DNA from: Burkholderiaceae bacterium
Lineage (GTDB): Bacteria > Pseudomonadota > Gammaproteobacteria > Burkholderiales > Burkholderiaceae_B
NCBI GenBank assembly: GCA_004322135.1
Contig: SCSG01000032.1
Coordinates: 1 to 64,000 of the forward strand
DNA length: 64,000 bases
Direction: 5' to 3'
Shown: one piece after another, positions 2,756 through 7,240 of the stretch
How the letters are laid out: the number at the start of each line of letters is the position of its first letter
How positions within the stretch are numbered: the first letter of the stretch is position 1
Position numbers and translations under genes: made by a program
Notes under the pieces: generated by a model
What the model was told of the DNA's origin: nothing
The model's input: the letters and a program-made list of their open reading frames with translations, nothing else
Database searches by the model: none

Positions 2756-3466
2756 ATGACAAACCTCGCGCTTGAAGTTACCGACCTGCAGGCGTGGCAC
2801 GACGATGCCCACGTCCTGCACAACGTGAATTTCAATGCCGCTCCTGGCGAAGCTGTCACGCTGCTGGGGCGCCGCGGGTCTGGCCGCAGCACGGCACTGC
2901 GCGCGCTGCTTGGGCTAACAGTCAAGCGCTCGGGGTCCATTCGCATACATGGTGCCGAATCCATCCACTTGCCCGCCAGCAAAATTACCCATCTTGGCGT
3001 TGGTTATTGCTTCGAAGACTACAACATCATCGCAGACCTCACCTGCGAAGAGAACCTGCTGCTGCCGCCGTCAACCGAAGACACGCTCGGGGGCGGCATG
3101 TCCCTGGCCGAAATTTACGAGCTGCTTCCTTACCTTGAAGAGCGCCGGGATTCACTGGGCACGCACTTCTCACGAGGTGGGCAGCAAATCCTTGCCATCG
3201 CGCGCATCCTGCGCAGCGGCGCCAACATACTGCTTCTGAACAAAACATCGGAAGACCTCACCCCGGTCGTCACGCGCACTCTGGCAAGCATGATCACGAC
3301 ACTGAAGGAAAAGGGCTATGCCATTGTCCTGGTCGACCAAAACGAGCAATTTTCGGCGCCATTGGCCGACCGCTTTTATGTCATGGACCATGGGCACATC
3401 ATCGACCATTTCGAAGCTGCCGAACTCAGTGCCAAGAAAGGAGTGCTTAACGCGTTGAATGCGTAA
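2756..3466 (+). CDS. LivF-like ABC transporter ATP-binding protein with degenerate catalytic motifs
   Basis: LivF-like layout (GVGYCFEDYNIIADLTCEENLLLP), but Walker A is GRRGSGRST, signature FSRGG and Walker B ILLLNKTSEDL. Confidence 0.8.
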   Translation: MTNLALEVTDLQAWHDDAHVLHNVNFNAAPGEAVTLLGRRGSGRSTALRALLGLTVKRSGSIRIHGAESIHLPASKITHLGVGYCFEDYNIIADLTCEENLLLPPSTEDTLGGGMSLAEIYELLPYLEERRDSLGTHFSRGGQQILAIARILRSGANILLLNKTSEDLTPVVTRTLASMITTLKEKGYAIVLVDQNEQFSAPLADRFYVMDHGHIIDHFEAAELSAKKGVLNALNA

Positions 3467-3595: not shown

Positions 3596-4357
3596 CTACT
3601 CAGCCTTTTTTCCAAGACCAAGGTAGCTTTCAATGACCTTCGGGTTGCCGCTAAGATCCTTGGCTGGACCTTCCAGGACGATCTCGCCGGTTTCCAGGAC
3701 GTAGCCGTAATCAGCCACCTGCAGGGCGGCGCGAGCGTTTTGCTCGACCAGCAAAATTGAAACACCTGTGCTGCGCAGACGCGCAATGATGTGGAAAATC
3801 TCGCGCACGATACGCGGAGCCAGGCCCAGGCTGGGTTCGTCCAGCATCAGCAACTGCGGCTGAGCCATCAGCGCACGCGCCACGGCCAGCATCTGCCGCT
3901 CGCCACCCGACAACGTACCGGCCTCCTGCATGCGCCGTTCGCGCAAGCGCGGAAAGATGTCGTAGACCTCTTCCATTTTCTGCTTCCAGCCGGGTCTTTT
4001 CTGGCGGTACAGACGGAATCCGCCCAACAGCAGATTATCTTCGACGGACATGCTGCCAAACAGTTCGCGCAGCTCGGGCACCAGCGACATGCCGTGGCCA
4101 ACACGATGCTCGACTTCCCAGCCCGACACCTCCGCGCCCAGATAGCGGATCTCGCCCGTGGCGCGACCGGCTGTCGGCAAGGAGCCCATGATCGAATTGA
4201 GCAACGTGGACTTGCCCGCACCATTGCCACCGATAACCGTCACGATGCTGCCAGCCGGAACCGTTATCTTGGCGCCCACCAGCGCATGGACCTTGCCATA
4301 CTGGGTGGACAAATTATTGACATCCAGAACCGCTTGCTGATTCGCGGGCGTCGTCAT
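3596..4357 (-). CDS. livF: Branched-chain amino acid-type ABC transporter ATP-binding protein LivF
   Basis: GGNGAGKST Walker A, LSGGERQM signature, LLMLDEPSLGLAP Walker B, LLVEQNA. Confidence 0.92.
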   Translation of the reverse strand: MTTPANQQAVLDVNNLSTQYGKVHALVGAKITVPAGSIVTVIGGNGAGKSTLLNSIMGSLPTAGRATGEIRYLGAEVSGWEVEHRVGHGMSLVPELRELFGSMSVEDNLLLGGFRLYRQKRPGWKQKMEEVYDIFPRLRERRMQEAGTLSGGERQMLAVARALMAQPQLLMLDEPSLGLAPRIVREIFHIIARLRSTGVSILLVEQNARAALQVADYGYVLETGEIVLEGPAKDLSGNPKVIESYLGLGKKAE

Positions 4358-6234
4358 ACCGCACCTCCTGCTGTCACGGGCGCGGACGCCTGTTCATCGT
4401 CTGACTCTGATTCATCGATACCACCCAGATAGGCCTCCATGACCTTTGGGTTCCTCTGCACTTCCTCGGGAAGACCTTCCGCCAGCTTGGTACCAAAATC
4501 CATGACGACAAGATGGTCGGTGAGGTTCATGACAAAATCCATATCGTGCTCGACCAGCAGAATGCTCATGCCTTCTTCACGCAAACGGCTCAGTACCTGC
4601 GCAAGTTCCTGTTTTTCTTTGTAGCGCAACCCTGCTGCCGGCTCATCAAGCAACAACAGAACCGGGTCGGCCGCCAACGCCCTCGCAATCTCGATGACGC
4701 GCTGCTGGCCCAGGGCCAGGTTGCCGGCCTGCTCGTACAGGTAATCGCCCAGTCCAACGCGCTGCAACTGCTTGGCGGCCTCATACAGAAGCTCGGACTC
4801 ATCCTTGCGCTCAAGATGCAGGGCGGCCGAAACGACGCCGACACTTCGGCGTAAATGCGCGCCCAGCGCAACGTTCTCGATAACGGTCATGGTGGGCAGC
4901 AGTTGCACGTGCTGAAAGGTTCTTCCAACGCCAAGCTTGGCAATTTCACGTGAGCGAAGCTTGTCGAGCCGCTTGCCCTGGAAGCTGATTTTTCCACTGG
5001 TGGACGGCAACACGCCAGTGATGAGGTTGAACGTCGTGGATTTGCCGGCACCGTTAGGGCCAATGAGCCCCATGATTTCACCCGCATGCAGTGAAAAGCT
5101 GATGTCGTTGACTGCCACCAGACCGCCGAACTCTTTTCGGGCTGCTTCCAATTGCAGTACCAGTGACCCTTTTTCAGGACGTTGACGCTGAGGCAGCGCC
5201 GTGGCTTCAGGAGGCGGCGCCAGCTTGCGTTGCGTCGTCTTCTGGCGGCTGATCGCATACCACCATCCGGCAATGATGTGCCACACGCCATCACGCGCGT
5301 ATTGCAACACCAGCACCATGAGCACGCCAAATACAACCAGCTCGAAGTTGGCTGTGGTGTGCAGGATCTGCGGCAGCACGTTCTGGATCTGGTCCTTGAG
5401 GAAAAGGATGAGACCGGAACCCACAAAGGCACCCCATACGCTGCTGCCACCTCCTACCACCGCCATGAACAGGTATTCAATGCTGTAGTCCAGCCCAAAC
5501 GGACTGGGGCTGACGGCACGCTGCATGTGGGCATACAGCCAGCCCGACACGCAGGCAAGCAGGGCCGAATACACAAAGATGATGATCTTGTACGACAGCA
5601 TGTTGATGCCGAAAGACTCGGCCATGCCGCTGCCGCCCTTCAGCGCGCGAATGGCACGCCCCGGACGGGAATTGAGCAAGTTACTCGTTGCCCACATCGA
5701 CACCAGCACCGCAAACCAGATGAGGTAGTAAATGTGCCGCCCGTGAGAAAGCGATATGCCGAAGATATGGATGGGCTCAATGCCGGCTATGCCGTCGTAT
5801 TGCCCAAGAAACTGCAGGTTGCCGAACAGGTAATACAACGACAGACCCCAGGCAATGGTTCCCAACGGAAGATAATGCCCCGAAAGGCGCAGCGTGATTG
5901 CTCCCAGGATATAGGAGACGATAGCCGTGAATACCAGGCCAAGGACCAGAGCCGCCCAAGGCGACCAACCCATTGCGGTAGTAAGGTAGGCCGTGGCGTA
6001 GGCACCTATCCCCACAAATGCAGCCTGCCCGAACGATGTCAGGCCTCCCACTCCGGTAAGAAGTACCAGGCCCAAAACCACCAGCGTGGCAAGGCCAATG
6101 TAATTGAGCTGGGTAATCCAGAACTCCGGAGTGGCAGCAAACGCCGGCAACCCGATCAACAGAATAAGAAAAACGACAAGTGGTAGTCGACGTATCATGG
6201 CCCTACACCTCGTCATCGGATTGAGTAGCGCCAA
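4354..6234 (-). CDS. Fused LivM permease / LivG ATPase
   Basis: N-terminal LivM-type membrane domain joined to a C-terminal ABC ATPase (GPNGAGKST, LALGQQRVIEIARAL, LLLLDEPAAGL) in one 626-aa ORF. Confidence 0.92.
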   Translation of the reverse strand: MALLNPMTRCRAMIRRLPLVVFLILLIGLPAFAATPEFWITQLNYIGLATLVVLGLVLLTGVGGLTSFGQAAFVGIGAYATAYLTTAMGWSPWAALVLGLVFTAIVSYILGAITLRLSGHYLPLGTIAWGLSLYYLFGNLQFLGQYDGIAGIEPIHIFGISLSHGRHIYYLIWFAVLVSMWATSNLLNSRPGRAIRALKGGSGMAESFGINMLSYKIIIFVYSALLACVSGWLYAHMQRAVSPSPFGLDYSIEYLFMAVVGGGSSVWGAFVGSGLILFLKDQIQNVLPQILHTTANFELVVFGVLMVLVLQYARDGVWHIIAGWWYAISRQKTTQRKLAPPPEATALPQRQRPEKGSLVLQLEAARKEFGGLVAVNDISFSLHAGEIMGLIGPNGAGKSTTFNLITGVLPSTSGKISFQGKRLDKLRSREIAKLGVGRTFQHVQLLPTMTVIENVALGAHLRRSVGVVSAALHLERKDESELLYEAAKQLQRVGLGDYLYEQAGNLALGQQRVIEIARALAADPVLLLLDEPAAGLRYKEKQELAQVLSRLREEGMSILLVEHDMDFVMNLTDHLVVMDFGTKLAEGLPEEVQRNPKVMEAYLGGIDESESDDEQASAPVTAGGAV

Positions 6235-7240
6235 ACGAACGCCACATAAGCACCGGAATAATCAACGTGAACACTATTACCTCTTTATAAGCACTGGCCC
6301 AGAACGACGAAAAAGCTTCGAGAATACCCACAAACAGCGCACCGGCCGCGGCCAGCGGGTAACTGACCATGCCTCCCACGATGGCGGCAACGAACCCCTT
6401 GAGGCCGACGATGAAGCCCGTATCGTAATAAATGGTGGTGACAGGCGAAATAAGCATGCCCGACAGCGCCCCGATGGCCGCCGCCAGGGTGAACGTGAGG
6501 CTGCCCGACAGGTTGGTGCTGATACCGACAAGGCGAGCACCGCGCCGGTTTACCGCTGTGGCGCGCAACGCACGACCATATAGCGTTTTTCCGAAAAATA
6601 GCCAAAGTATGAGGATAAGCGCGGCGCAAGTCCCCAGAACGAAAAACGTTTGCGCCGACCAGGTCACCGCGCCGAACTTGACTTCGCCCTCAAGGAACGG
6701 GGGAGTACGCCAGCCTTCGGCACCAAAAAACACCAGTCCCAGCCCGGTAAGCACAAAGTGAACGGCCACACCAATGATCAGCAGCACCAGCACACTGGCC
6801 TCGGCGATGGGCTGAAAAACCAACCGGTACGTCATCGGACCAAGTGGAATAACCAGTGCCAGTGAAAACAGCACGTCGATCCAAAGTGGGGTTTTCGTAC
6901 TGACCACATACGGTGCCGCAATGAACAAGAGGCCCGGGAGCACCAGCGTCCAGGCAATGGTCTTGGGGAGTTTTTTCCAGTCGTTATGCCTCATGCAGGA
7001 AAATACCTCGACCAGGAACACGACAACGCCGACAATCAGCAGCAAATGCACCGTCCCGGGGATTTTGCCATTTACCATGAAGGCAAGAGTCAGCGCCCCG
7101 TAAGCAACAAACTCGCCTTGTGGTATGAATACAACGCGAGTCACTACAAACACAAGCACTAGCGCCAAACCCAGCAATGCATAGACAGCGCCGTTCAGGA
7201 TACCGTCCTGCAGCAAGATAAAGATGATTGTCGAATCCAT
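6203..7240 (-). CDS. livH: Branched-chain amino acid-type ABC transporter permease LivH
   Basis: Hydrophobic LivH-type permease (LQDGILNGAVYALLGLALVLVF, GFVAAIVGGMVSYPLAAAGALFVGILEAF); overlaps the livMG fusion. Confidence 0.9.
   Translation of the reverse strand: MDSTIIFILLQDGILNGAVYALLGLALVLVFVVTRVVFIPQGEFVAYGALTLAFMVNGKIPGTVHLLLIVGVVVFLVEVFSCMRHNDWKKLPKTIAWTLVLPGLLFIAAPYVVSTKTPLWIDVLFSLALVIPLGPMTYRLVFQPIAEASVLVLLIIGVAVHFVLTGLGLVFFGAEGWRTPPFLEGEVKFGAVTWSAQTFFVLGTCAALILILWLFFGKTLYGRALRATAVNRRGARLVGISTNLSGSLTFTLAAAIGALSGMLISPVTTIYYDTGFIVGLKGFVAAIVGGMVSYPLAAAGALFVGILEAFSSFWASAYKEVIVFTLIIPVLMWRSFGATQSDDEV

Follow-up and report, generated by a model that had tools for sequence, protein, structure and literature searches.

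The gene at positions 2,756–3,466 of the 64,000-nucleotide stretch of DNA analysed here (the window), which we call X, is very probably a maintained orphan pseudo-ATPase that has outlived its own transporter. X occupies the same locus in 26 genomes from nine genera (g1, g2, g5, g7, g17, g19, g27, g35 and g65), and it shows the combination that marks a pseudoenzyme, namely lost catalytic motifs in a gene under purifying selection. Because selection keeps X intact despite the loss of its ATP-handling motifs and, in most related bacteria, of its pump, X probably has another, ATP-independent job. ABC NBDs are usually held to be useless without a permease and ATP; X is an NBD that has been conserved across those genera after its ATP-site motifs and, mostly, its permease were lost. 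We know of no described case of an orphan pseudo-NBD of an ABC importer kept after transporter loss, and a search of the open-access literature for a gene like X returned no description.

The gene and its locus

The following features of the window frame the analysis.

1,830–2,468, + strand: nth (endonuclease III), conserved neighbour upstream of X (sequence, synteny)
2,581–2,597, + strand: promoter-like element CTATGACAAACCCGCAT, then CATACT; also upstream of livG in parental cassettes (sequence comparison)
2,756–3,466, + strand: X, LivF-derived pseudo-ATPase, 236 aa (ORF, ABC_tran match, same-locus orthologues in 25 other genomes)
3,596–4,357, − strand: livF2, the canonical LivF in the convergent Liv system; X does not derive from it (ORF, NCBIfam, motifs)
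4,354–6,234, − strand: livM–livG fusion (permease and ATPase) of the convergent Liv system, 626 aa (ORF, relatives)
6,203–7,240, − strand: livH2, permease of the convergent Liv system (ORF, synteny)

The X reading frame begins with ATG and runs without an internal stop. Its product matches the Pfam profile ABC_tran (PF00005) at 72 bits, whereas the best-scoring NCBIfam profiles, UrtE and LivF, both stay well under their own cut-offs. A PDB sequence search gave 1ji0 as the best match, which was also the top fold match (TM 0.89) of the AlphaFold model of X (pLDDT 87.8). Judged by sequence and predicted fold, X is an ABC NBD. The first-pass annotation had proposed an intact LivF-like frame of 236 aa here, and the ORF check, the ABC_tran match and the 1ji0 fold match bear this out. 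The label 'ABC transporter ATP-binding protein' that automatic annotation gives to X genes misleads.

X sits between nth and livF2–livMG2–livH2, convergent to this liv operon as had been annotated, and the adjoining LivF is indeed canonical, reading GGNGAGKST, LSGGE and LLMLDEPS. The gene order phaZ–rnfB–nth–[...]–livF2–livMG2–livH2–msrB is conserved in the host's family, the bracket being filled by an R-type cassette (livG–livF–livK–livH–livM) in most family genomes and by X alone in others. Eoetvoesiella caeni (L078, NZ_QNRQ01000001.1; G001) has both, and there X immediately precedes the complete cassette (X–livG–livF–livK–livH–livM). In the window genome, X is at the nth locus and an R-type cassette lies on a different contig (L031). 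The livM–livG fusion is kept at the same locus in relatives.

Of 20 X genomes, 16 have the promoter-like element CTATGACAAACCCGCAT upstream of X (search within 320 bases, at most 4 mismatches in 16). E. caeni carries two copies, before X and before livG (G001:C1:657301 and 658208), and the window genome likewise carries two, upstream of X and of its other R-type cassette; at one mismatch these genome-wide hits number only two. Since this ancestral liv element has been retained so widely, X is probably not simply part of the nth transcript. The element is dyad-like (CTATG-AMAAACCCK-CAT(AG), with CATACT downstream), and stands before R-type liv cassettes and X; its sites include G000:C21:129340-129356.

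Origin of X and loss of its transporter

The parent of X is the R-type livF of the livG–livF–livK–livH–livM cassette, which is now gone from the window site. The nearest otherwise canonical relatives of X are the LivF proteins of this cassette. Walker A has Arg (GRNG(A/S)GR) in every one of the 92 distinct canonical sequences scored from across Burkholderiales; this set was chosen by LSGGEQQ and DEISEG, which are hence present in all of its members. Of the nearest outgroups examined, two have GRNGAGK with DEPTEG and one has GRNGAGR with DEITEG. This Burkholderiales-wide LivF subfamily (L046, L031, L077-L156) thus combines a Walker A Lys-to-Arg change and an Ile after DE (DEIS rather than DEPS) with a canonical signature and canonical Walker B acids. 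The neighbouring livF2 was rejected as the source of X: it belongs to a distant LivF subfamily on a long outside branch, whereas X falls within the R-type family.

The LivG of the parental cassette has normal Walker motifs and the signature LPYGRKR, which suggests that the parental LivG/LivF pair may already have had one weak ATP site. Human ABCG5/G8 carries the Walker A Lys-to-Arg change in its degenerate site (PMC7756269). An otherwise canonical parent family with Walker A Arg suggests a bacterial importer family that runs on one asymmetric ATP site.

The cognate R-type LivH was missing from 18 of the 22 X genomes tested and found in four, as it was in all three cassette controls; canonical R-type LivF is likewise gone from most X genomes. 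LivF proteins are typically encoded with their cognate LivH and LivM, whereas X is located apart from its own permease genes and has no cassette beside it in the window. As most X genomes lack R-type livF or LivH, we rejected an accessory role to the R-type cassette as the general role of X. Of 20 X genomes tested, 19 had the convergent Liv system, the LivM–LivG fusion giving no match in G027 (X present; draft, 96% complete), which weakens an obligate tie of X to that system.

In a tree of the flanking genes, the X-only state falls in four places, and its largest clade holds nine genomes of five genera, the window and E. caeni among them (SH-aLRT 99). The X protein tree neither supports nor rejects a single origin (bootstrap 12–28%, p-AU 0.44). 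The g5 genomes that carry X are small, at about 2 Mb. In G027:C242 (L044), X has a C-terminal extension (273 aa) and is followed by an oppositely oriented livK-like gene.

The part of the NBD that X keeps

One block stood out when alignment columns of X were compared with those of its parents.

3,038–3,136, + strand: conserved helical-subdomain block, residues 95–127, LTCEENLLLPP..TLGGGMSLAEIYELLPYL, best kept part across X (column comparison with parents)

Across X this block is nearly invariant (LSCEENLLLP...LGGGMSLAEIYELFP; pattern LSCEENLLLP, LGGG(M/L)SLxEIYxLxP). X keeps 81% of the parent-conserved columns in residues 95–127 against 36–37% in the Q-loop and switch; the signature helix block and the second beta block each retain 72%. 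Where the parent family is at least 95% invariant, X keeps 3 of 24 columns in the ATP motifs and 47 of 129 elsewhere (Fisher p 0.03), a modest support for specific ATP-motif loss because X diverges at other columns too; the comparison of blocks is more telling. At residue 71, 88% of X representatives have His, whereas the parents vary, with Asp in 46%.

Residues 95–127 form the start of the helical subdomain, whose face is the side of an NBD that meets the coupling helices of the permease. In LptB, a groove atop the monomer takes the permease coupling helix (PMC6703430), and the X block appears from the alignment to map to an LptB-like coupling-helix groove. X may accordingly dock with a partner, of which the convergent Liv system (LivH2, LivM–LivG, LivF2) would be the likeliest. 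That X acts on a Liv-type permease at all is a tentative proposal with a less than even chance, and action on the neighbouring convergent system in particular is doubtful; an inhibitory or partner-subunit role for that adjacent system is possible.

X might instead work outside transport altogether, as a stand-alone scaffold whose partner could be, for example, the nth product or some other protein of the cytosol. X outlives its transporter, persists in the small g5 genomes and in G027 without a LivM–LivG fusion, and follows nth in a conserved order, all of which would fit a scaffold. We nevertheless consider this unlikely, given the liv promoter-like element retained in most X genomes and the helical subdomain as the best kept block.

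ATP-site motifs

The ATP-site positions of X in the window are as follows.

2,798–2,800, + strand: A-loop position, His15; Tyr in the canonical parent family (alignment to parents)
2,867–2,893, + strand: Walker A GRRGSGRST, residues 38–46 (sequence, parent motif listing)
3,005–3,025, + strand: Q-loop region YCFEDYN; parents YCPEERG (alignment to parents)
3,167–3,181, + strand: signature FSRGG, residues 138–142; parents LSGGE (sequence, alignment)
3,227–3,259, + strand: Walker B and D-loop ILLLNKTSEDL, from residue 158; parents LLLLDEISEGL (sequence, alignment)

The Walker A, signature and Walker B motifs lie exactly where the first-pass annotation had placed them. LivF-type NBDs are recognized by a Walker A Lys, an LSGGQ/E signature and a Walker B DE pair, and the window copy has none of the three, NK replacing the Walker B Asp and the catalytic Glu. 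The Lys-to-Arg change had been counted among the alterations of X, but it is no loss in X: Arg44 is the state of the whole canonical parent family, whereas Arg40 is not (the family has Asn). The changes specific to X are therefore confined to Walker B, the signature, the Q-loop and the A-loop.

Conservation of K-to-R, D-to-N and E-to-K among orthologues had been named as a check. The exact pair of D-to-N and E-to-K is not conserved, and each single change recurs, D-to-N in X of E. caeni, G035, G007 and G176, and E-to-K in the g2 genomes and G007. Other X lineages carry different ATP-site losses. The g5 copies have neither a P-loop (VSSCKxxQ) nor the Walker B acid pair (VLHDL) and keep the signature LSPGEQ(Q/H); E. 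caeni, g35 and G017 have lost Walker A and B and retain LSGGEQQ; further signatures outside the window are LSTPERQ, LPRGDRR and LAAEQRH. As the losses vary by lineage and some copies (g19) retain the Walker B DE, residual ATP binding is possible. A nucleotide-sensing role, which had been suggested for X, is unlikely because several orthologues lack a P-loop entirely.

The retained signatures raise the prospect of a half-site NBD, in which X would contribute its signature and coupling face, and the Walker motifs of a LivG-type partner would form the one active site. Degenerate-site heterodimers (TAP1/2, ABCG5/G8, Pdr5 and TM287/288) resemble X in having altered Walker A/B or signature motifs under selection, and ABCG5/G8 shares the Lys-to-Arg change (PMC7756269). 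The cassette LivG has good Walker motifs but the signature LPYGRKR, so that the parental pair already looks asymmetric. Such degenerate NBDs, however, are fused to or encoded with a permease and have a catalytic partner, whereas X is an orphan whose cognate LivH is lost in most genomes, and the linked liv2 system already supplies LivF2 and a LivG domain. A kept signature is also typical of the degenerate-site proteins; E. caeni, g35 and G017 have one, and the window copy, with FSRGG, does not, nor do the copies with LSTPERQ, LPRGDRR or LAAEQRH. On motif grounds a half-site would be plausible for the lineages keeping LSGGEQQ and unlikely for the window copy; as an explanation of X overall, we regard it as improbable.

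Intactness and selection

The X reading frame is open in all 26 genomes, in agreement with the earlier argument that an uninterrupted frame speaks against simple decay. Codon models gave dN/dS (omega) values for X of 0.051 in g2, 0.086 in g5, 0.061 in g19 and 0.050 in g35, and 0.054 in the set with the window, so that even copies with an erased P-loop remain in the low range of 0.05–0.09. For nth and livF2, omega was 0.018–0.074 in the sets in which they were run, X usually being higher than both. Fixing omega at 1 fitted X worse by 2dlnL 234–623, values that are approximate because these fits used a fixed kappa of 2. Between the window and E. caeni copies, pairwise omega was 0.15–0.20 at dS 1.3–1.6, a distant pair on which the constraint on the window copy rests, as the comparison covered only one other genome of the window's genus. 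In the seven g2 genomes, the altered motifs LSRxRAGRS, LSTGEQK and LLLLDKVSEG are kept in all, at dS up to 1.9. Constraint at the DNA level (for example, from an overlapping gene) is unlikely as the cause of this conservation, because in most pairs X and nth have about equally high dS.

These data weigh on the view that X is a recently inactivated leftover of a deleted liv cassette, with stops still to come. Such decay would fit the absence of the cassette from the nth site in the window, the differing motifs among lineages and the faster evolution of X than of its neighbours. However, neutral drift simulated from E. caeni X over 0.3–1.0 substitutions per site left the frame stop-free in at most 1% of runs, and simple decay was rejected by this simulation together with the intact frames across nine genera and the omega values; a pseudogene would be expected to have broken frames among its relatives or an omega close to 1, the signs that the first-pass annotation had named as refuting a maintained pseudo-ATPase, and X shows neither. 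The genomes without X or cassette (G216, G221, G112 and G011) have no recognizable X remnant beside nth, the longer gaps of G031 and G137 being left out of this comparison. The window branch is not specially accelerated either: branch lengths of 0.51 (window) and 0.30 (E. caeni) in the X tree stand in the same ratio as 0.16 and 0.10 in the locus tree. Decay is thus a very improbable explanation. That X could be active as an ATPase despite its unusual motifs is hardly credible: R-type parents with Walker A Arg are otherwise canonical and presumably functional, but the g5 copies lack both the P-loop and the Walker B acid pair, and in the window copy the signature, the Walker B Asp and the catalytic Glu are all missing.

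Proposed history and relation to known systems

For the maintained orphan pseudo-ATPase, we consider probable a full account, naming no partner, in which an R-type livF duplicate lost its ATP site stepwise and came to dock or regulate independently of ATP. In the simplest history, R-type livF would have been duplicated in the cassette after nth, the X copy keeping the promoter-like element and losing livG. Repeated loss of the cassette would then have left X as an orphan, its ATP-site residues going stepwise and differently in each lineage. The product would fold as an NBD, work without ATP hydrolysis, and dock or regulate through the helical-subdomain face. We see as evenly balanced the proposition that X is a stand-alone ABC pseudo-ATPase lineage that arose by duplication within a Liv cassette, ceased to bind ATP, persisted in several genera after its transporter was gone and acquired a new function independent of ATP, whether regulating another transporter, serving it as a decoy subunit or acting as a cytosolic scaffold. 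Comparison of the 26 natural variants shows which NBD surface matters without catalysis, and they offer a direct test of ATP-independent NBD roles.

Like orphan multitask NBDs of the MsmK/MsmX type, X is free-standing and encoded apart from a permease; those proteins are active ATPases energizing several importers (PMC7658222), whereas X lacks the catalytic residues. With pseudoenzymes in general (reviewed in PMC10211241), X shares a conserved fold, lost catalysis and purifying selection. Its closest likeness is to the R-type Burkholderiales LivF of HAAT (LivFGHMJ) branched-chain amino acid importers, in sequence (57–66% to the close relatives listed), fold, locus, promoter-like element and Walker A Arg. 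Canonical R-type members have LSGGEQQ, LLLLDEISEG and a livGFKHM cassette, whereas X has lost these motifs and the cassette.

Two further observations concern R-type livF itself. G018 (L033, L034) has two near-identical copies in two liv cassettes, a recent duplication. In G031 (L041:9205-9885), a second orphan, divergent R-type livF with intact motifs lies between ligA and yciB/msrB, away from nth.
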